A DNA stretch of 64,000 bases, from positions 1 to 64,000 of the forward strand of contig BDTR01000053.1 of the NCBI GenBank assembly GCA_002897775.1, given 5' to 3'. Below the pieces are notes generated by a model that worked only from the letters and a program-made list of their open reading frames with translations, made no database searches and had not been told where the DNA came from. Below, one piece after another: positions 25,620 through 37,097 of this stretch (position 1 is its first letter; every line of letters starts with the position of its first letter). The translations under genes and the position numbers were made by a program. This DNA comes from a bacterium BMS3Bbin08. GTDB lineage: Bacteria > Nitrospirota > Thermodesulfovibrionia > UBA6902 > BMS3Bbin08.

Positions 25620-26747
25620 TTAATTGCCTCTTGTTAGAATTATGTCCATTTCTCCTGAATTTTTTGTTTTGTTACCACAAATTTCAGTTTGCGTCCTATT
25701 TTGAAAAGGTTTAGAAATTATTTTGACTTTGTGATTCGGAAAATGATTAATCAAAATATTAAGAGTTGAATTTAAAGTAAACTCTCTAGCATCTGTTCGT
25801 ACATATATGGTGCTTTTTTTATCCATTATAGTTGCACAATTATAAAAAACATCATCAAGGAGGTTATAATACTCTTCTTGAGAAACAAATCTTCCTTTAT
25901 ACTTTTCTTGTTGTGCTTTAGGGTTCTCAGAGCCACCTAGAAGCCAAAGACGAATCCATTGATCTGTATGGTAGTCTGTTACAGAACAATATGGTGGTGA
26001 AGTAAATAATAATGAGAACCGTATACCTGTCGCTTTTGTTATTTGAACAATTTGTTCTAGTTCATTTGTACTATCTCCAAAAATTACATAACTTTTTGCT
26101 AAATTAGGCGTGCCTTTTTCATATCGCCATTCAATTTTTTTTAGTATAAATTTATAAGGATCAATTATTGGCGGCTTAGTCATTTTATGTTCTTTCCACC
26201 AATGTACAGAATAGTTAATGCCCATTGCTTTAGTCATTCTCAGCTGATTGGAAAGAGCTTCGCCAAGTTTCCCGTGAAGATAAACTAAAATGATAGACAT
26301 TAATGTTGCATCAACATTATTATTTTTCCAGTCAAGATGCTTTCGAGCAGCAAGAAGAAACATTAATACTTCATCGCAATAACACATCCTGTAGAATTTA
26401 TGCATTAGTTCAACGGCTCTCTTATAGTAGTTCCGTTTCGAATAGATTTCCAGTAGTCGTTTTATTACCGCTTCTTTATCCCCTGGTTTCATCTTTACTG
26501 AACCATAGAGCCAACCAACAGGGTTGATCTCAATCCCTAGGCTTTGCCTGCCTAGAACTCCACCAGCATAAATGCTTGAACATCTACCAGCAAAAGGATC
26601 AATAATAAAATCACCTTCTTTGGAATATTTCTCAACTACTTCAAAGGCAAAATCGAGAGGAAACATAGCATAATAAGGCCCAAATCTTGCCCAACGGGAC
26701 TCAGCACTTTTAAAACCTTTTACTATATCTTCTGTTTTTATCATCAT
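25620..26747 (-). CDS. DNA methyltransferase (TSPPY type, N4-cytosine-like)
   Basis: Product of 375 residues. SAM motif near the N-terminus (DPFAGRCSSIYAGGVLGRQSLGIEINP) and the catalytic TSPPY at about residue 250, the form usual for N4-cytosine enzymes. Last gene of the co-directional defence run; its ATG overlaps the nurA stop by 4 bp. Probable role: self-marking for the HerA-NurA module, or a second modification activity. Target sequence unknown. Confidence 0.82.
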   Translation of the reverse strand: MMIKTEDIVKGFKSAESRWARFGPYYAMFPLDFAFEVVEKYSKEGDFIIDPFAGRCSSIYAGGVLGRQSLGIEINPVGWLYGSVKMKPGDKEAVIKRLLEIYSKRNYYKRAVELMHKFYRMCYCDEVLMFLLAARKHLDWKNNNVDATLMSIILVYLHGKLGEALSNQLRMTKAMGINYSVHWWKEHKMTKPPIIDPYKFILKKIEWRYEKGTPNLAKSYVIFGDSTNELEQIVQITKATGIRFSLLFTSPPYCSVTDYHTDQWIRLWLLGGSENPKAQQEKYKGRFVSQEEYYNLLDDVFYNCATIMDKKSTIYVRTDAREFTLNSTLNILINHFPNHKVKIISKPFQNRTQTEICGNKTKNSGEMDIILTRGN

Positions 26748-28129
26748 TCTTTATATGATTTAGCTCTAATTTCTCTAGCGATATCGTCAAATATCCGTTT
26801 ACCAAGATTCAAGGGTATTGCTGCTTCTGCATGGGCAGAAACAAGTGGTGAAACTGAATTAGGATATCGACTAGAGACTAACTCATCCAACATATTCATT
26901 AAATCCGCTAATCGAGGAAATTGGTCTGACCTTGCCGTTTTTAAATTTTGCTGATGCTCATTGAAAAACGCAAGAACAGGGATAATTCTATATCCTATCT
27001 TTGTTTTATAAAATAGCTTTCTCCCAAAATAAGTGTCTTGGCCGTATAGCTTGTCACTTTCAGAAAAAATAATATTCTTTTTGATGTAGCCATCAGAAAG
27101 CAGAAATGCCGACTGATTTGGGAAACAGTCGGTTGTACCATCAACTTTGGTATCAACTTCCTCAAAATGGTTATAAAAAGTGCCTGACTTTTCAATACCG
27201 AATATCAAAAGATCTTTTCCCGTTTGTTTTTTTTGGAGTCCATTTATTCGAGCTAATTCCGTAATTATAGATTTGTTAATCCAAGACCAGGTACTGAAGC
27301 AAGCCAAAGGACCGTCAAGTACAAAAGAAACTCGATCTAACAGGTTTAACCAATCCTTTTTCTCAAATGATCTTAAAATGTGAACAAGCCAAAGCTTCTC
27401 AAACATCTGCATTACTTGACCATACATTTCGCCATTTGTTCCACCCGAATTCATTAACTCGTGCAAACGCATTGCATCTGTTGAGTACAATAGTTCACCG
27501 CTATGGGGACAAACGTATTGACCAAAATCGTAAGTCATTTCTTGGTCAACTCCATCAATAGGACTTCTTGGTTTTCTTCTATCTCCAAGTTCTTTATCCT
27601 TTTCAAGTTTAATTCGAAAAAGATGTTCGAAGGTTTCCAATAAAGTTTCACCTTCTTCAAACGCTCTTGTGTTTTGAAGCTCCTCAAACAGCACTCTGCG
27701 CATTGATGTTTTAGCCGATTTCTCGTTATCAATGATGACATTACAACCGGGAATCACTGTGTCAATAGCTGATGCCTTTTCGGTCTCTCTAAACTTCTTC
27801 GGATCAATAAATTCCTGCCTGGCAAATTCGCGGACGGATTTCTCAACTATCAAAACAGCAGAAATAGTTATATAACCAAATTCTGCTCCAGGAAATCCAT
27901 TTTCAGCTTTCGCTGGCTGGTAACTTCCATCAATAGCAATAACGTAATCAGGGATAAAATCGCTCCTCATGTCAGCCTTGCTGATGATGTTGCTTTTAAA
28001 TTCTTCTTGCCCGCTTCCTTGCGCATCTTTTTTTCTTATTTTCAGCCTATCCTGCAGTGACTTAACCTTTGAACTGTCTAGAATTCTACGGAGAGGCTCA
28101 TAACTGGCAAATTCGCTTTCAAATCCCAT
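26744..28129 (-). CDS. NurA-domain nuclease
   Basis: Product of 461 residues. NurA domain with the metal-binding aspartates in VIAIDGSYQ (about residue 67) and FVLDGPLACFS (about 270), and a C-terminal YPNSVSPLVSAHAEAAI block. NurA is a nuclease that works inside a HerA hexamer. It sits 12 bp after the HerA gene and overlaps the methyltransferase gene, so the three are probably translated together. Bacterial HerA-NurA pairs in islands are associated with phage defence. Confidence 0.85.
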   Translation of the reverse strand: MGFESEFASYEPLRRILDSSKVKSLQDRLKIRKKDAQGSGQEEFKSNIISKADMRSDFIPDYVIAIDGSYQPAKAENGFPGAEFGYITISAVLIVEKSVREFARQEFIDPKKFRETEKASAIDTVIPGCNVIIDNEKSAKTSMRRVLFEELQNTRAFEEGETLLETFEHLFRIKLEKDKELGDRRKPRSPIDGVDQEMTYDFGQYVCPHSGELLYSTDAMRLHELMNSGGTNGEMYGQVMQMFEKLWLVHILRSFEKKDWLNLLDRVSFVLDGPLACFSTWSWINKSIITELARINGLQKKQTGKDLLIFGIEKSGTFYNHFEEVDTKVDGTTDCFPNQSAFLLSDGYIKKNIIFSESDKLYGQDTYFGRKLFYKTKIGYRIIPVLAFFNEHQQNLKTARSDQFPRLADLMNMLDELVSSRYPNSVSPLVSAHAEAAIPLNLGKRIFDDIAREIRAKSYKE

Positions 28130-28141
28130 ACATTACCCTCA

Positions 28142-30301
28142 TTATACGGTTACATCAAATTTATCCACTTGCACTGGAATTACAAATGGATTGCTCAATG
28201 TTTTTACTCTCAAAAATCCTTTGTCTTGCGCACGCCTTATTGACAGATCAAAATCAACAAAATCATAATATTTGCAAAGCTCCCTTGTTTCATCAGTATT
28301 ATTAAGATGAGAAATGAACCAATTAGCTGTATTTTTCAAAATATTCTTCTGAATGCTACTAACTTCCTGAGTAGCATAAACCATACCAAGGCAATACTTT
28401 GCCCCCTCTTTTGCAGTTCTAACCCAAACATCTTTCAAATCAAGATCGCTGCCACTTGGCAAAAGATTGTGCGCTTCCTCAATATAAATTATAATTTCTG
28501 TTGGCGTCTGCCCTTCTCGGAACAACTTTTGATTTGCTCGAAATATGTGCCACATAACCCGTTCTGCAGTGGCTTGGTTTATTTCAGGCTCACCGCTAGA
28601 TTGATCAATAATGACTAATTTCCCATTTTTCAGATCATTATAAATATCTTCCGCATAATCAGAGCTTCTAGTAGGAGAATGATTCTCTATTACCTTAGCA
28701 ATTTGTTTAGGACCATTGCTTCTCGAAACCATTTCAAGAATTTTCACAAAATTTTCATCCGCCCAATTATCACCAGAAGGGTTTGGCCTGTCATCAACGT
28801 ACCATCTTTCAAATGCTTTGTATTCTGCTGTCTTCATATAATCAGATAACGTTGCAAAAGCAGTTGCCAAACTATGCAAGGAAGGACTTGCTGTTTGAAA
28901 AACTCTTGCAGCAGCAGCAAATTTATCGGCATTGTCCGGATCTCTTTGAACATTCAACATTCCATCAAACCGTGTACTTGCATTTCTCGCACTTGGACGC
29001 CCGTTAATTAATTCATTGCTAAAGAGCCCTGTTGTCGTAATAGTTAAATCTGCTGGCACAGGGAACCCTGCCTTAGCCAATAATGCCCGATACGCAAGAA
29101 CCCTTCTATTGTAACGAGTCATTGCACTTCTATCCACTGCATCGGGAGCTATAAACTCAACTTGTTGAAAATTCTCAATAAATTTAGATTCACCTTTTTT
29201 GAATGAGTTATCAATAATTTCTTTACCTATTTGCAAGTTTTCCTCCAAATAGAAATTAATAAGCATTCGGTTTCGTTCAGGGTCATTAGGATGAGATGTT
29301 ATGCCATAAGTAACAACTTCATCTGATTTATTCTTACCTGCACGGATTTTCCAGATATTCTTTAAGGCGTTAGGATTATTCATTCCATCAGCATCCTGAA
29401 CATTCTCATTGGCATACTCACCGTTTGGGTCGAAGATGATTTGACCAATCTGTAACGCTTTATCCTCTGGCTGAGCAGGGTACCGCAATTCATAAACAGA
29501 TTTTGCAATGATTTTGGTAGTATTTGATTTCCCTGTTCTAGTCATTCCAAACAATGCTGACTTTTGCGAGAGTAAGTCTGCAGGATACATATAAACCGGA
29601 ACATCATCTATATTCTGAAATTTCCTATTGGTTGATGCGTACCGGATGAAGCCAAGTTTCACGTTCTCGGACGTTCCGTATTTTTTGATATGTTCTTGTC
29701 TATTACTCGGGTCTGTATAATTTACAATTAGCTCCAGCGCTTTAGCATTTGGCTTATAAACTTTAAGTCCTCTATTCGGATAGAAATTGGAGATGTCACT
29801 CCCAAATTTTAAATATAACTGGCCATTTTGTTCTTCAGCTGATACATCCAGATAAAATGTACCAATGATTCTACATTGTACCCCTGCATAACCTAGATAG
29901 ACGCGGGTTTTCGTATCCATTATTCCTTCACCGTCCCAATGTCTATCAGTCTCTCCACTAACTCGTTGGGCCGTTTCAACCCTTATTCTTTCTGCTTCTG
30001 AACTATTTGGTAATTGTGCTGCATCCATTACTCTGAGTAAAATAAATGAAGAATCCTCTGTCTTGAAATCAATATCAGCATCATCTGGATCAACTCGTGT
30101 GGCAATAAGAAAACTCAAACTTGGAATCCCCCCTACTTTTTTTCGCTCGTTATCGTGTATTTGTACTTTCGCATTCTCATAATTTATAGAGTAAAGTTCG
30201 CCCACATATTGGTCTTTTTGGACTATTTTTTCAAACCATGTTTGAGCATCTTTTATCTGCATGTTTTTAAGCTCTTGAGCTAATTTTTTTTCTAGTGTCA
30301 T
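28142..30301 (-). CDS. HerA-like DNA translocase ATPase
   Basis: Product of 719 residues. An N-terminal HAS-barrel-like region is followed by the P-loop GMTRTGKS (about 252-259), FDPNGEYANEN, and the Walker B region IIIYIEEAHNLLPSG. This is the FtsK/HerA hexameric translocase fold. With NurA it would form a DNA-end-processing or DNA-degrading machine. Lower-GC composition than the flanking core genes suggests transfer. Confidence 0.88.
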   Translation of the reverse strand: MTLEKKLAQELKNMQIKDAQTWFEKIVQKDQYVGELYSINYENAKVQIHDNERKKVGGIPSLSFLIATRVDPDDADIDFKTEDSSFILLRVMDAAQLPNSSEAERIRVETAQRVSGETDRHWDGEGIMDTKTRVYLGYAGVQCRIIGTFYLDVSAEEQNGQLYLKFGSDISNFYPNRGLKVYKPNAKALELIVNYTDPSNRQEHIKKYGTSENVKLGFIRYASTNRKFQNIDDVPVYMYPADLLSQKSALFGMTRTGKSNTTKIIAKSVYELRYPAQPEDKALQIGQIIFDPNGEYANENVQDADGMNNPNALKNIWKIRAGKNKSDEVVTYGITSHPNDPERNRMLINFYLEENLQIGKEIIDNSFKKGESKFIENFQQVEFIAPDAVDRSAMTRYNRRVLAYRALLAKAGFPVPADLTITTTGLFSNELINGRPSARNASTRFDGMLNVQRDPDNADKFAAAARVFQTASPSLHSLATAFATLSDYMKTAEYKAFERWYVDDRPNPSGDNWADENFVKILEMVSRSNGPKQIAKVIENHSPTRSSDYAEDIYNDLKNGKLVIIDQSSGEPEINQATAERVMWHIFRANQKLFREGQTPTEIIIYIEEAHNLLPSGSDLDLKDVWVRTAKEGAKYCLGMVYATQEVSSIQKNILKNTANWFISHLNNTDETRELCKYYDFVDFDLSIRRAQDKGFLRVKTLSNPFVIPVQVDKFDVTV

Positions 30302-30338
30302 AGATTTACTATACCTCCCCCTTTAATAATTTCATCAC

Positions 30339-31196
30339 TTATATACATTTTTCCAGACGATGCAATAGGTTACTTATTAGAAATAATCTCCCTAACGCTT
30401 CGTGATGCGAGATTTGCTTCTCATCACCATGGCTTAGAGTATTACGCCACCACTGCATTATGCCCATAGCAATATACATAAAACCTTCCTGCTCATTTTG
30501 ATCGGAGCTAGTACGCAAAGCGTTGAGCTTAATAACTTGCTTTTTCAAACTGAATACCTGAGCCATCAAATCTTTTCCAATGGCAATGACGCCGGACTTT
30601 TTTTGAACATAAACCTCATATTTTTCTAATGCTTTACGAACCGACTCATTTATATGCCCACCCATAAACAATTTTTGACATTCCGGCATCAGAATAGGAT
30701 GCATTTTAAATTTGTTCAATATCTCTTGGATATCATAGGGCGGCGGAACAACCTTAGGTCTTTCTTTGGGAAATCTTAATCCTCTTATTTCTTTTTTAAG
30801 ATCAATCCCTATTTTAAATAACTGTTCGCTTAAAGCATCGGCTTCTTTAAGTAATATTGGATTACCTTGCTGATGTCTTCGTTCAATAGCTCTTGGAATA
30901 ATCTCTCGAATAACTTTCTTCATCATTCTAGGATGCTTTTTCTGAACATCTTGAATAAAAAAAGAAAATGTTTCTTTCTTGTTATGATGTTTTGATGGAA
31001 AGCATTTCGTTAGATTAAATCTCTTTGCGATATTCTGTAGATTGAAATTACCCCTGCCGGAATAAGGAACCAATTCTCCAAGCATCTCAGCTAAAGTTCT
31101 CATGTTTTGTATATCTACGGCCGTAAGTCGCTTGGATGCTCGTTTCGTTTTCGTATTCTTTCTTTTTGCTCTCTTTTTCTCTGCTCTCTTCTTCAT
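30339..31196 (-). CDS. Ymh/TIGR02391-family HEPN-like protein
   Basis: Product of 285 residues. Very basic N-terminus (KKRAEKKRAKRKNTKTKR). The C-terminal half matches the Ymh pattern: MPECQKLFMGGHINESVRKALEKYE, GFMYIAMGIMQWWRNTLSHGD. The R-N-x-x-x-H ending is HEPN-like. Family members are widespread in restriction and defence loci and are suspected RNases or abortive-infection effectors. It lies 20 bp after res and 37 bp before the HerA gene, inside the operon. Confidence 0.7.
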   Translation of the reverse strand: MKKRAEKKRAKRKNTKTKRASKRLTAVDIQNMRTLAEMLGELVPYSGRGNFNLQNIAKRFNLTKCFPSKHHNKKETFSFFIQDVQKKHPRMMKKVIREIIPRAIERRHQQGNPILLKEADALSEQLFKIGIDLKKEIRGLRFPKERPKVVPPPYDIQEILNKFKMHPILMPECQKLFMGGHINESVRKALEKYEVYVQKKSGVIAIGKDLMAQVFSLKKQVIKLNALRTSSDQNEQEGFMYIAMGIMQWWRNTLSHGDEKQISHHEALGRLFLISNLLHRLEKCI

Positions 31197-31216: not shown

Positions 31217-34200
31217 TTATTCCAACACCCCAACAAACTCTGCTATGACTTTAAAATCTTCACCGCTGACATTTTCAAGTACAATATCATCAAAGTTTTT
31301 GTTATCAGGCGACAAAATTATTTTTTTATGCCGCCACTGGTCTCCTTCAAGTGTCTTCTTCTCACTTTTGTATCTTTTTACTGTAAATTTTTGATTTGTT
31401 TCTGGGTCTGCTACTTGACGCGACTCAACAAGTACAACTAAGCCATTTCTGGACCCCCCCTGATCAAAGCGGAATATACAATAACTACCGTCTGGAATTG
31501 TCGGCTCCATTGATCTACCAACAACTTTGGCGATAAACATATACTTATCAAGCTTCTTGCCAATATTCATCATTTTCCAACCCAACAATTCTGGCTTCTG
31601 TTCCTCACTGAATACCGTCGCAACAGCCTGCAAAGAGAACACCGGCAGATGCGTTGAATACTTATCTTTTTTCGGCATATCTGCATTCGGAATGACATCA
31701 CTAAAAAATAAATCCGACTTTTCCACCCATGCAAGACTTGCTTTTATGACTCTATCAAATGCGGCAGTAAATTCTTGTTTTTTAACTGCTTCGTTGTAGA
31801 AAGGTAGACCTATAAGCCTGTATTTAGCAGACTCAAATAAAGTATGAATCTTAAAATGCTTCTCTATTTCATTCAGGAATTCTTCTTTCCACTGATCAGA
31901 CTTTATTAAATGCTGTCCCTTCGGTTCAACAAAGAGTTGTAAGGATAAAGACGTCTTCGTGTCCTTTTCAGTAAGGAATAATACAAAATCTGGAGCAAAG
32001 GCCTTACCATCAGAAAAACGGTATATTTTAAAAACTTGTTCATTTCTCAGAAGGTAAATATCCGAGCATTTCTTTTTAATTTCTTCTATGGCATGCCGGA
32101 CAAACTGTATAAAATACTTTTCCTCTGATGTACCGTAATTCTCATCATACATGTACCAGTCGTGATTTTTAAGGTGTAAACGCAAGTCGTCTCTGCTCGT
32201 GTAGCTCATAGCAATACCAAATTCTTTATCCTCGCCACCGATTAAAACCTCGCCTGTCCTTGACGACTCAACCACTTTGCAAATATTATGACCCTTAAAT
32301 TCTTTCGTTCCGATGTATTCCGATGTGCTGGATTCAATTTTATTCGCCAACTCTTTAAAAACATCTAAAGCGATTTCATATTTATCGTGGTGGTTTAGAT
32401 TATCTAACCTCTCTTTTAAACCATAAATCTCAACATCAACCTCACCGAGATAATCATCCGATGTTAAAAACTCATCAATGGAATTAAGAGATGGAAAATA
32501 CCGTTGAAGATTGATAAAACGATAAAAATCAACTTTATCAAGAGCTTTTCTATTTATGTGTTTTTCAATCTGATTAAATTTAATAGTGTGTTGTATTATA
32601 TCTTGATATTGACTGCCGTTTTCCGCTGCCTCATCAAAAACACTTATTTCGGTTGTCTTGCCAATTCTCAGTTTATGTTTAAATATGGTCTCCGAAATCA
32701 GGTCACACATTTGTTTAACTTTTTCTCGGCTATTTTCCTTTTTTTCATTGAGGAAAAGAAGACCGTCTTTCCAGAACATCGTTTTCTTAATGTGGTCTTT
32801 AATCGAAACGGTTATTTGTTTCCGTCGGTCATCCGGCGGAGAGATACCACTTTTCACAAGCTCTGCTTTAATTTCATTAATATAGCGAGAATCGTTAAGG
32901 CTATGGTAGTGAAGTTCTTCTAAAACCCTTAATTCGTTATTTATATCTTCATCATATTTACGCTTAAATTTGTCCTGATCTCCTTTAATAACAAAAGGGA
33001 AATACCTTGCACCACGCCCAATAAGTTGAGCTTCTGAAATAGTAGTACCTCCAGCTTTGCTGTGTCTCGTGTCTCTTGTTTCATATAGCCTGACAATATC
33101 ATATAAATTAAGTACATCCCATCCTTCGTTTAGCATATTCACGGTAAAAATAACACGGGTTTCATTATGCTCAGACTCGAGAGTATTTACCTTGATCTGT
33201 TTTTCTTCGCTATCAGCTTTTGAGTTAACAGCAATACACTTTTCCTCTGAGAAATCACTCTTAATCTCTCTGACTAAATTCTCATATGTTATGCCGTTTT
33301 TCTTGAAGAATTTAAACGCCATGTTTATAATTCCGTTACTGCTACTTTTCTCGATTTTCTTTATATCACTAACCTTGAGTTTTCTTATCATTTCCTTAAA
33401 TTTGTATTCGGCAACCTCTGACTGGGCGATTGTCCTTTGTGATTTAACCAATATTACTGGCTTAAGCTGTATTTTGTATTTTTCGGCAACTTTACGCCTA
33501 TACTGGCTTAATATAACCGCCTGCAAGGCCCTTTCCATAATATTGAGGTCGGACTGCAATATTTGAATATCCTTTGAAAACTTATCCTCTCTAAATTCTT
33601 TCAAAGTGTATTGATAAACAATCTTATCTTCATATTTTGTCCGAATAGCTTTGTCTGATAGATCAATGGTCGCAGTATATTCCAGCATTATATTTTCACT
33701 TTCACTCTGGAATATCTTATTGACCGTATTTTCCCAGCTTGTGCTTTCTTCACGTTCATCTTTCGTCATCTTCGCAAAATTCTTTGTCAAAGCGTTTATA
33801 TGATGAGCTTCGTCCGAAAGAAAAACGATTTTCTTATTTTTGAAATCTTCCAACGTAATTGCATTTTCTTGCGGAGTCCAAATCCGTGAATGAAGTCCCT
33901 GAATGGTCGTAAATAGGATATTGATATTATCAGGATTAATCCCTTCAAAATTATCGACTTCCTGAATATTTATTTCTTTATCGTTAAAGACAACTTTTTC
34001 AGCAAAGAGGTATTTTGGCGAGGACTTATCCAGAAAATTCGCCTTTGTCTTTTTTATAATAGTCCTACTGTTAACAAAGAAAATAAAATGCCGATACCCA
34101 AGCTTATAGAGATAAAGGATATTTGACGCCATCAGAAATGTTTTGCCGCTACCAGTTGCCATATTACATAGCAGGTGAATAGGAAGAGTTTTATCCGGAT

Positions 34201-34372
34201 AGTCTGTTAAATAGTAGATAAGGCGGGCAATGGCTTCCTGTTGGTATTCCCTGATCGAAAACCGCTGATTAAGGTTATTAACGATATATTCAGGTAATAC
34301 TTTATACTGCTTAAGAAACCCTAATTGCGAGACAGAATGTAATTTTTCAACTAATGTCTGACCGTTTGCCAT
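31217..34372 (-). CDS. Type III restriction enzyme Res subunit fused to S24/LexA-like peptidase
   Basis: Product of 1051 residues. SF2 helicase core: Walker A NMATGSGKTFLM, DEAH box FLSDEAHHI, motif VI AQLIGRGARYFPF. A PD-(D/E)XK nuclease segment follows (FAPDFVLFL...LFVEPKG, about 795-825). The last 140 residues are a peptidase S24 domain: VGRSMEPTIPDGSYCIFR with the nucleophile-type Ser (about 954) and FTVKRY with the Lys (about 999). Res cleaves DNA after translocation, guided by Mod. The S24 tail is not part of the classical Res subunit. The gene starts 2 bp after mod. Confidence 0.87.
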   Translation of the reverse strand: MANGQTLVEKLHSVSQLGFLKQYKVLPEYIVNNLNQRFSIREYQQEAIARLIYYLTDYPDKTLPIHLLCNMATGSGKTFLMASNILYLYKLGYRHFIFFVNSRTIIKKTKANFLDKSSPKYLFAEKVVFNDKEINIQEVDNFEGINPDNINILFTTIQGLHSRIWTPQENAITLEDFKNKKIVFLSDEAHHINALTKNFAKMTKDEREESTSWENTVNKIFQSESENIMLEYTATIDLSDKAIRTKYEDKIVYQYTLKEFREDKFSKDIQILQSDLNIMERALQAVILSQYRRKVAEKYKIQLKPVILVKSQRTIAQSEVAEYKFKEMIRKLKVSDIKKIEKSSSNGIINMAFKFFKKNGITYENLVREIKSDFSEEKCIAVNSKADSEEKQIKVNTLESEHNETRVIFTVNMLNEGWDVLNLYDIVRLYETRDTRHSKAGGTTISEAQLIGRGARYFPFVIKGDQDKFKRKYDEDINNELRVLEELHYHSLNDSRYINEIKAELVKSGISPPDDRRKQITVSIKDHIKKTMFWKDGLLFLNEKKENSREKVKQMCDLISETIFKHKLRIGKTTEISVFDEAAENGSQYQDIIQHTIKFNQIEKHINRKALDKVDFYRFINLQRYFPSLNSIDEFLTSDDYLGEVDVEIYGLKERLDNLNHHDKYEIALDVFKELANKIESSTSEYIGTKEFKGHNICKVVESSRTGEVLIGGEDKEFGIAMSYTSRDDLRLHLKNHDWYMYDENYGTSEEKYFIQFVRHAIEEIKKKCSDIYLLRNEQVFKIYRFSDGKAFAPDFVLFLTEKDTKTSLSLQLFVEPKGQHLIKSDQWKEEFLNEIEKHFKIHTLFESAKYRLIGLPFYNEAVKKQEFTAAFDRVIKASLAWVEKSDLFFSDVIPNADMPKKDKYSTHLPVFSLQAVATVFSEEQKPELLGWKMMNIGKKLDKYMFIAKVVGRSMEPTIPDGSYCIFRFDQGGSRNGLVVLVESRQVADPETNQKFTVKRYKSEKKTLEGDQWRHKKIILSPDNKNFDDIVLENVSGEDFKVIAEFVGVLE

Positions 34373-34374
34373 AT

Positions 34375-36075
34375 TTAAATAACTGTTTTATGAAATTCCT
34401 TATTGAGCTTCTTATCATCTGCACTAACCTTGTACATGGTGTCATTAATCTCACTCAAAGCAACGTAAAGATGATTTTTATCGAGGCACTCACATAATAC
34501 TTGTTTCTGCTCTTTAAGAGTCAATTTCTTAAATTCTTGTTCCTCGAATTTAGACAAATCAATGTCATATCTAAAAAACGACTCTTTTCTCATCCTCCCA
34601 TAGATTTTTAAAAGTTTGAGTGTAGTGTTGGCGTCTTCTATATCAGTCATGTATTGTTCGTTCCATTCCTTAAGCTCCGCATAAACGAAAGAACCGCCAC
34701 CCTTCCATTTTCGTTTTTTAGCGATGGCACCTTCATCTTTTCCTTTTACAACTTTTTTCAACCGATTTTTTAATACCTCAGCTTGTTTCTCTATTTGCTC
34801 TACCAATATGTATTGCCTTTTTAATTTGTGAGCGACCGTGCCCGTGGTCCCACTGCCCGCAAAAAAATCTAAAACAATGTCTCCATCATTTGATGAGGCT
34901 TGAATAATTCGCTCTAATAAGGCCTCCGGCTTTTGAGTATCAAAATCTACTCTTTCTTTAGCTGTCGGTATTTGTTGAAATGACATAATGTCATACCACA
35001 CATCACCCACTGGCTTGCCTTTCTTTATAACCTCATCCAAGTATAATTTATCTCCTCTACCATCAAAATACTTCCGACCATCTTTATCAGTTTTATTGAA
35101 CCTGTCCAGATATTCTTTTCGATGGGCCATTTTTTGCTTATTGAAAATGAAATTGTTACGATCTTTGGAATAAAACAATATTGTATCGTGTCCTCTAATC
35201 CAATTATTCGCAATGGTTTTGAATCCAGACAATACTGAAATGTCCCATACAATTTCTCTTTGAAAACTTTCCCTTCCAAAAACCTCGTCCATTAAAACCT
35301 TAAAGTAATGGACTTCATTATAATCAAGTTGGACATATATTGAACCATCATAAGATAAAAGTTCCTTTGCTATCTCAAGACGGTTTTTCATGAAAGTTAA
35401 CCAAGTCGAATGTGTAAATTTATCATTATATTTAAAACTATCATTCTCTGTGTTGTACGGCGGATCAATAAAAATTAGTTTCACCTGTCCTCTATATTTT
35501 TGCTTTAAACAATGCAGGGCAAGGAGATTATTTCCCTTAATAATTAAATTATCATCGTCATTAAATCCAGTTACGGTGAGAGCTTTTTTACCGTCGTATC
35601 GCATAAAATTCGTTAAGACCTTCGGCTCGAATAACCTGTCTATCTCATCCGGGGAAAGGGTTTCGTTATGAAAAATCTCATCCCGCTTTTGATCTTCCTT
35701 GTCCTGCCCGCCTTCGAGCACACAGTCCTTATATGCCCACGTAAGGACAACATCACCTTTTTCTTTTAAATAGTCGCCATTTGTCATTAAGCCAATCTTA
35801 TTCTTGAACCTGGTAAAAGAATCAGGGAGAAACTCTTTATTGTTCACGAAAGAAATAAATTTATCCTTATCGAATATGAGAATTTTGTCTTTCTTAACTA
35901 TCTTGTCAACGAAGAAATGCCCTTTTGCTTTTTTATCTGACAAAAGCAATTCAATAAGAGACTGATCAAGTTTAAGGGCTAATTCGGTAAGCTTATTTTT
36001 TAACAGCTTTCCATTAGCAAAAATCCGAGAGTCTTTCTGAAACAATTTCATTAAATCATTCATTAAATTTTGCAT
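34375..36075 (-). CDS. Type III restriction-modification Mod methyltransferase
   Basis: Product of 566 residues. Beta-class N6-adenine methyltransferase: catalytic IFIDPPYNTEND precedes the SAM motif VLDFFAGSGTTGTVAHKL. The region between and after carries the target recognition domain. It modifies one strand and gives sequence specificity to Res. It follows the small HTH gene by 1 bp and precedes res by 2 bp. No simple-sequence repeat that would suggest phase-variable mod is seen. Confidence 0.93.
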   Translation of the reverse strand: MQNLMNDLMKLFQKDSRIFANGKLLKNKLTELALKLDQSLIELLLSDKKAKGHFFVDKIVKKDKILIFDKDKFISFVNNKEFLPDSFTRFKNKIGLMTNGDYLKEKGDVVLTWAYKDCVLEGGQDKEDQKRDEIFHNETLSPDEIDRLFEPKVLTNFMRYDGKKALTVTGFNDDDNLIIKGNNLLALHCLKQKYRGQVKLIFIDPPYNTENDSFKYNDKFTHSTWLTFMKNRLEIAKELLSYDGSIYVQLDYNEVHYFKVLMDEVFGRESFQREIVWDISVLSGFKTIANNWIRGHDTILFYSKDRNNFIFNKQKMAHRKEYLDRFNKTDKDGRKYFDGRGDKLYLDEVIKKGKPVGDVWYDIMSFQQIPTAKERVDFDTQKPEALLERIIQASSNDGDIVLDFFAGSGTTGTVAHKLKRQYILVEQIEKQAEVLKNRLKKVVKGKDEGAIAKKRKWKGGGSFVYAELKEWNEQYMTDIEDANTTLKLLKIYGRMRKESFFRYDIDLSKFEEQEFKKLTLKEQKQVLCECLDKNHLYVALSEINDTMYKVSADDKKLNKEFHKTVI

Positions 36076-36076
36076 A

Positions 36077-36265
36077 TTATAAACCCCTTTTCTTGAGAAA
36101 CTTCTCTATGTGATATTGCTGTACCTTGCTTGGTTTAGTCTTTCCGCTGAACCATCGGCTAATTGTAGAAAATGAGACACCTAAATAATCTGCAAGCTTC
36201 TGTAGAGATACTCTGTTTTCCAAACGATATGTTTCTAAACGTTTTACTATTTGCATATTTTGCAT
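36077..36265 (-). CDS. Small XRE-type HTH regulator
   Basis: Product of 62 residues, essentially one helix-turn-helix: VSLQKLADYLGVSFSTISRWFSGKTKPSKVQQ. First gene of the defence operon, 1 bp before mod. Likely the operon's transcriptional regulator. It lacks any sensor domain; an S24 peptidase domain of the kind usually attached to such an HTH is found on Res instead. Confidence 0.8.
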   Translation of the reverse strand: MQNMQIVKRLETYRLENRVSLQKLADYLGVSFSTISRWFSGKTKPSKVQQYHIEKFLKKRGL

Positions 36266-36890: not shown

Positions 36891-37097
36891 CTACCGGCAG
36901 GCAGGCGCTTCAGGGGTTCTGTTCAAAATGAGTTCGAACTTTTTCCAATAAGGACCACCAGCCTTCGCTTCGAATAAAACAAAAAGTCCTTCTCGTTTTG
37001 CATATTCTCTCAGTTCGGCTAATTGCGCCTCGATAGAGAGTACCTGTCTTTCTTCGTCTTCTGTTGATTTTCTGCAATAGATAAAATATTTAGTCAT
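36891..37097 (-). pseudogene. Serine recombinase N-terminal remnant
   Basis: The first 40-odd residues (YFIYCRKSTEDEERQVLSIEAQLAELREYAKREGL) match the recombinase at 20508-22057, including its upstream sequence. The reading then passes straight into the GGTGGTCCTTATTGGAAAAAG end block. An internal deletion has removed nearly the whole gene, leaving the element without its own integrase. Confidence 0.85.

Follow-up and report, generated by a model that had tools for sequence, protein, structure and literature searches.

A LexA-type S24 peptidase module at the C-terminus of a type III restriction subunit is shared by unrelated bacterial DNA-defence enzymes and may act as a self-cleaving switch

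The window analyzed here is a 64,000-nucleotide stretch of DNA from the Nitrospirota bacterium BMS3Bbin08 (contig BDTR01000053.1, assembly GCA_002897775.1, positions 1 to 64,000), and it carries a type III restriction-modification (RM) operon in which the restriction subunit, Res, ends with a domain of the S24 peptidase family. The C-terminus of Res is a genuine LexA-fold S24 domain, and bacterial DNA-defence enzymes of at least six unrelated kinds carry the same portable domain. Judged from sequence, this distribution suggests a shared way of switching defence enzymes in response to damage to the cell's own DNA, and the cross-family module is more interesting than the system of the window. 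For Res, we propose that the C-terminus is a self-cleaving switch of the LexA/UmuD type, acting in cis, triggered by RecA and shutting off restriction; we give this proposal slightly less than an even chance. The relevant features, with positions in the window, are as follows.

36077-36265, minus strand: small Cro/XRE-type helix-turn-helix (HTH) gene of 62 residues heading the operon (HTH_3, PF01381, 1.4e-9)
34375-36075, minus strand: Mod, type III DNA methyltransferase of 566 residues (PF12564, 8.5e-18; PF01555, 5.2e-54; PADLOC MTase_III, 7.5e-163)
31217-34372, minus strand: Res, type III restriction subunit with C-terminal S24 module, 1051 residues (N-terminal ResIII, 4.3e-27; PADLOC REase_III, 2.6e-135)
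31217-31720, minus strand: S24 module of Res, residues 885-1051 (linker and LexA-like domain), absent from tail-less homologues and with homologous tails on other hosts
31688-31720, minus strand: linker motif KSDLFFSDVIP, Res residues 885-895, from the tail alignment
31616-31621, minus strand: predicted scissile bond Ala918-Thr919 (SLQAVA/TVF), from alignment with the Ala-Gly of most relatives
31511-31513, minus strand: catalytic Ser954 (GRSMEP), conserved in tails
31376-31378, minus strand: catalytic Lys999 (TVKRY), conserved in tails

The identity of the domain was established by profile and structure comparison. Residues 941-1046 of Res matched Peptidase_S24 (PF00717, 1e-7, 32.1 bits against a cut-off of 23.3), and Res scored 35.6 bits for PF00717 in a genome-wide search. 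An AlphaFold2 model of residues 889-1051, built from 73 sequences, reached a predicted local distance difference test (pLDDT) score of 85.7, and its best match in the PDB was LexA (Foldseek 1.1e-5). Comparison with the catalytic domain of LexA gave a VIA Z of 13.3 and a root mean square deviation of 3.0 for 123 aligned residues (LexA 69-197), a match that takes in the LexA cleavage region. The other structural matches were LexA in the RecA filament, then λ CI and UmuD'. The lowest pLDDT of the model was in the loop carrying the predicted cleavage site (model residues 28-35). Sequence-based phmmer and profile searches of the PDB gave no significant S24 match, so that the domain was placed by Pfam and fold comparison alone. 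A model of full-length Res was poor (pLDDT of 50 from eight sequences) and allows no inference on how the tail packs against the motor. The original prediction, made from the sequence of the window, had described an S24 domain with its Ser in GRSMEP and its Lys in TVKRY and had called for structure prediction of the Res C-terminus; Pfam, the LexA fold and the positions of Ser954 and Lys999 bear this description out.

We then analyzed the conservation of the catalytic dyad and of the predicted cleavage site in two sets of aligned tails. Ser and Lys were kept in 84 of 84 tails of the first set, which was collected partly by pattern searches whose patterns include Ser or Lys. The second set contained 39 tails from an independent Omnitrophota profile search, not conditioned on Ser/Lys motifs, and from a 'handle' search; both residues were kept in all 37 full-length tails, some of which the first set already contained, and the remaining 2 of the 39 were fragments. 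Position P1 of the predicted site was Ala in all 84 tails of the first set, and P1' was Gly in 63, Thr in 19 and Ser in 2. In the window, the predicted bond is Ala918-Thr919 and not the Ala-Gly or Cys-Gly bond of LexA/CI-type repressors. The Ala-Thr site also predominates in the Omnitrophota set, and the dyad and the P1 Ala were invariant in every Ala-Thr tail too. Across 73 tails, 11 of 163 columns were invariant, three of them being the P1 Ala, the Ser and the Lys. The distance from P1 to Ser is 36 residues in the window, compared to 35-38 in most of the Nitrospirota LexA proteins read. The tail thus resembles LexA in its catalytic fold with cleavage region, its Ser-Lys dyad, its P1 Ala and a cleavage loop about 35 residues before the Ser. 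It differs from LexA in that the Res chain consists of ResIII and S24 without an HTH, which is encoded by the separate 62-residue gene, in that the S24 domain stands behind a restriction motor-nuclease, and in having Thr at P1' in the window and Gly in most tail relatives. The conservation of P1 Ala, Ser and Lys, together with the spacing, would be difficult to account for if the bond were not cut, and self-cleavage of the Res chain is probable. The original prediction saw no obvious Ala-Gly cleavage site and held a binding role to be as likely as autocleavage. A candidate site became identifiable after alignment of relatives, 36 residues before Ser954, and the balance between the two roles has shifted away from binding since Ser, Lys and P1 Ala are among so few invariant columns. 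In such a binding role, the domain would remain uncut and serve to dimerise or to dock on RecA or other proteins. The S24 domains of LexA, UmuD and CI do dimerise, and the replacement of Gly by Thr at P1' in the window would suit an uncut domain, but docking alone would not require an invariant dyad and P1 Ala, Ala-Thr tails included. We consider this role unlikely.

The S24 module is a mobile addition to otherwise complete enzymes, as judged by two lines of comparison. Firstly, a search with whole Res in 296 genomes of the window's phylum returned two types of match, full-length Res homologues that lack a tail and align at 45-47% identity up to residue 880-887, and proteins of other kinds that match in the tail alone. 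The alignment showed that tail-less homologues stop where the tail starts, and that the GSGKT, DEAH and PD...ExK motifs are kept in tailed and tail-less homologues alike. Secondly, a profile built from eight tails was run against the genome collection and identified 169 confirmed relatives; 80 of these were kept, and host families were assigned by BLAST clustering and by Pfam and PADLOC on representatives. The module comprises a linker and the S24 domain, about 165 residues at the C-terminus, and was found on the following hosts.

Type I HsdR: 44 loci
DruE/YprA-like helicases (Druantia) with MrfA zinc-binding domain: 10 loci
SLFN-g3 (DUF2075-type) helicases: 9 loci
Type III Res and related helicase-nucleases: 5 loci
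Type ISP single-chain enzymes: 4 loci
Eco57I-type methylases matching DrmMI (class-1 DISARM): 3 loci
Another DEAD protein: 1 locus
HTH_3-S24 protein: 1 locus

Nearly all hosts are DNA motors, nucleases or modification-restriction proteins, from unrelated families; tailed proteins occur in many phyla, and in nearly all hosts the tail is the extreme C-terminus. One of the DrmMI-like hosts (L081) adjoins a DpdE/DrmD-like SNF2 gene. A tree of 105 tails requires at least 23 changes of host family, compared to a possible minimum of 7, and in it Omnitrophota tails from HsdR, Res, ISP and SLFN hosts cluster together; such repeated changes are what a domain that moves from enzyme to enzyme would leave, as expected of a generic safety switch. 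Among tails of the Ala-Thr type, the linker motif L[FY][FVL]xD[VIL] was present in 9 of 11 from Res-type hosts and 22 of 24 from HsdR; among HsdR tails of the Ala-Gly type, it was present in 1 of 35. Within the window's clade the motif is common to Res-type and HsdR tails, so the linker travels with the domain. By profile search, the tail was detected in 40 of 285 Omnitrophota genomes and in 5 of 388 Pseudomonadota genomes, one of the latter being a known reference.

Several loci showed particular arrangements. Two type ISP-like enzymes (L087:1661-6145 and L088:4926-9527) carry the module internally, followed by 199 residues, and the HTH_3-S24 protein (L069:9635-10471) has an S24 domain of the tail family in the usual repressor order. 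The SLFN-g3 helicase-S24 gene of L029, L097, L098 and L099 is preceded by a short MazG-like gene (named by eye from its sequence), and in L098 and L099 a conserved unnamed gene follows it. Three genomes (G296, G298 and G486) encode two or more S24-tailed proteins each, which is consistent with genome-wide use of the module. Four other candidates were excluded as host families, L060 (a PIN-like start joined to the tail), L042, L044 and L070 being probably broken or misassembled genes. A role as a phage anti-restriction device was also dropped, since searches of phage and viral collections found no tails, although at that sensitivity absence is no proof, and a plasmid search found one record.

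The mechanism that we propose for Res would start from the LexA-fold module with Ser954, Lys999 and its cleavage loop. The protein would cut its own chain between Ala918 and Thr919, as conservation suggests, and by analogy with the LexA family the cut would be promoted by filaments of RecA on single-stranded DNA (ssDNA) in response to host DNA damage, such as the enzyme itself might inflict by attacking the chromosome. The cut Res would end in ...LQAVA (...KAAA in relatives), an ssrA-like tail that might be recognized by ClpXP as on cleaved LexA, with the outcome that the motor-nuclease is destroyed and restriction is off, a self-contained form of restriction alleviation. Cleaved LexA exposes signals for ClpX and both fragments are degraded, according to a statement in PMC10584840 that cites Neher 2003, and ClpXP degrades the HsdR subunit of EcoKI during restriction alleviation (PMC4231737). 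The proposed outcome is like that of EcoKI alleviation, where a restriction motor is removed when the cell's own DNA is at risk (PMC4231737, PMC11109961). However, no built-in protease has been described for EcoKI HsdR and ClpXP acts on the translocating complex, whereas Res would carry in cis the protease that makes the signal.

The genome of the window encodes RecA, ClpX, two LexA proteins and a third S24 protein, so that the classical SOS machinery is present, and a genuine S24 domain with its dyad makes a coupling of restriction to DNA damage reasonable. RecA is, on analogy, fairly likely to be the trigger of the cut. Alternatively, the tail might process itself independently of RecA, or serve as a sensor or a decoy for those phage proteins whose targets are LexA-like repressors; the nearest structural matches are RecA-dependent proteins and nothing positive points to another trigger, which makes either version quite improbable. 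On contigs G000:C53 and G000:C32 (L155, L158), the promoter region of the genome's own lexA contains the perfect palindrome ACTGTAAATATTTACAGT, and GTGAACAATCGTTCAC lies near the start of a third S24 gene, which suggests two kinds of SOS box in one genome.

The effect of the cut on the enzyme is a separate matter, and we lean modestly towards shut-off rather than activation. In an activation scheme, the intact tail would restrain the motor-nuclease, and self-cleavage after DNA damage or in response to phage-induced ssDNA would turn the enzyme on. UmuD provides a precedent, as S24 cleavage activates it. Like Res, UmuD (of DNA polymerase V) has an S24 domain without HTH and its processing controls the activity of an enzyme and not transcription, but UmuD is a separate small protein whereas the Res module is covalently part of the enzyme that it would control. 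The cut product would also resemble the tail-less, presumably active homologues, and the module is found on several proteins of anti-phage systems. However, ordinary RM enzymes protect their own DNA by modification and must restrict constitutively to be useful, so that there is no evident reason for keeping them inactive. Activation is rather unlikely in our judgement, though a real candidate.

A number of points weigh against a RecA-triggered, degradative switch. The patterns used to gather the 84 tails mean that this set alone overstates the invariance of the dyad. The tolerance of Thr at P1' is the weakest point of the predicted cleavage, as replacement of the Gly at the LexA site (G85D) blocks cleavage and the window has Ala-Thr. 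The plausibility of ...LQAVA as a ClpXP degron comes from resemblance alone; P2-P1 is often AA or VA in ordinary LexA proteins too, and the Ala-rich residues could be needed just for cleavage. Removal of the tail would leave a protein like an ordinary active Res, a result compatible with activation as well. A search for LexA-box-like sequences near the operon promoter found none, which would leave the protein level for any SOS control. Finally, cleavage, RecA dependence and degradation are all deduced from comparison. Extension of the RecA-triggered switch to all hosts, as one interchangeable LexA-type module that RecA filaments cause to be cut and that exposes an ssrA-like C-terminus across type I, III and ISP, Druantia-like, class-1 DISARM-like and SLFN-helicase systems, is offered more tentatively still.

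The lone HTH at the operon start noted in the original prediction is real, but its suggested role as the partner of the S24 domain was not supported. Under that suggestion, the two would form a split LexA/CI repressor controlling the operon, Res providing the S24 half and the 62-residue protein the DNA-binding half. An HTH gene indeed heads the operon in the window and at L160, L189 (where the Res frame is interrupted) and L163, that is in 4 of 6 type III Res-S24 cases, and at L069 the tail homologue is fused to HTH_3. The HTH genes that precede Mod at L160 and L189 are of the window's type, but that at L163 is a different XRE gene. Furthermore, the survey of Res-S24 fusions for HTH neighbors that had been put forward with the suggestion revealed two loci (L021 and L024) where Mod and Res-S24 are preceded by a RhuM-like gene and lack an HTH gene, an outcome that the original prediction had named as its refutation. 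An XRE-type HTH open reading frame (ORF) lies within 7 kb upstream in just 6 of 60 other S24-tailed loci with upstream sequence, and HsdR, DruE-like and other proteins carry the same module without an HTH. No HTH gene was seen at the tail-less relatives L093-L095, the contig of L093 ending near Mod. Combined, these results make a split repressor very unlikely; the HTH protein is probably a lineage-specific regulator of the operon, separate from the S24 switch, although an HTH-S24 link may exist within the type III subfamily. The regulation of defence operons by CapH-CapP likewise involves DNA damage, proteolysis and a small HTH regulator, but there the HTH protein, CapH, is cut by a separate metallopeptidase, CapP, whereas the protease of the window is a Ser-Lys domain on the effector itself.

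How restriction and nuclease defences spare the host after DNA damage is an old question, solved mainly for E. coli type I enzymes (ClpXP-HsdR). If our proposal is correct, a LexA-like protease placed on the enzyme itself and reused across unrelated families of defence would answer it in general terms and in a way that is easy to test: the enzyme would carry the signal for its own programmed destruction, and the SOS response would be tied to immunity post-translationally, without a transcription factor. If cleavage activates instead, the result would be an immune response triggered by DNA damage. The module with its linker also readily suggests itself as a RecA-responsive switch for transplantation. 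S24 domains are well known, as are type III systems, Pfam detects the fusion at once, and database listings may already contain the Res-S24 architecture. In the open-access literature, we found no paper describing S24 or LexA fused to restriction, helicase or defence enzymes; neither LexA nor peptidase is mentioned in a 2025 review of restriction systems (PMC12707154), and a preprint on the YprA family (PMC12458937) is likewise silent on S24 and LexA.

The remainder of the operon is that of a type III RM system. Re-reading of the ORFs showed that the gene coordinates of the original prediction were correct; the gaps between the HTH, Mod and Res genes are 1 or 2 bases. According to Pfam and PADLOC, Mod and Res form a complete type III pair. 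Res has a Walker A motif (GSGKT, residues 74-78), a DEAH motif (187-190) and a PD-(D/E)XK nuclease motif (P794-D795...E816-x-K818). The window thus has Mod and Res with all the core motifs of type III systems, to which the S24 module on Res and the leading HTH gene are added. Directly behind Res (25620-31196, minus strand) are genes for a Hypoth_Ymh/HEPN-like protein, a HerA-like ATPase, a NurA nuclease and a second N6/N4 DNA methylase. This HerA-NurA-methylase set may be a separate defence system, and it does not adjoin the other type III Res-S24 operons examined. The truncated N-terminus of a serine recombinase (36891-37097, minus strand) lies a short distance upstream of the HTH gene, and a 494-residue recombinase with a similar start is present near the HTH-Mod-Res-S24 operon of L163. 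The recombinases beside these two operons are a hint that such operons are mobile.
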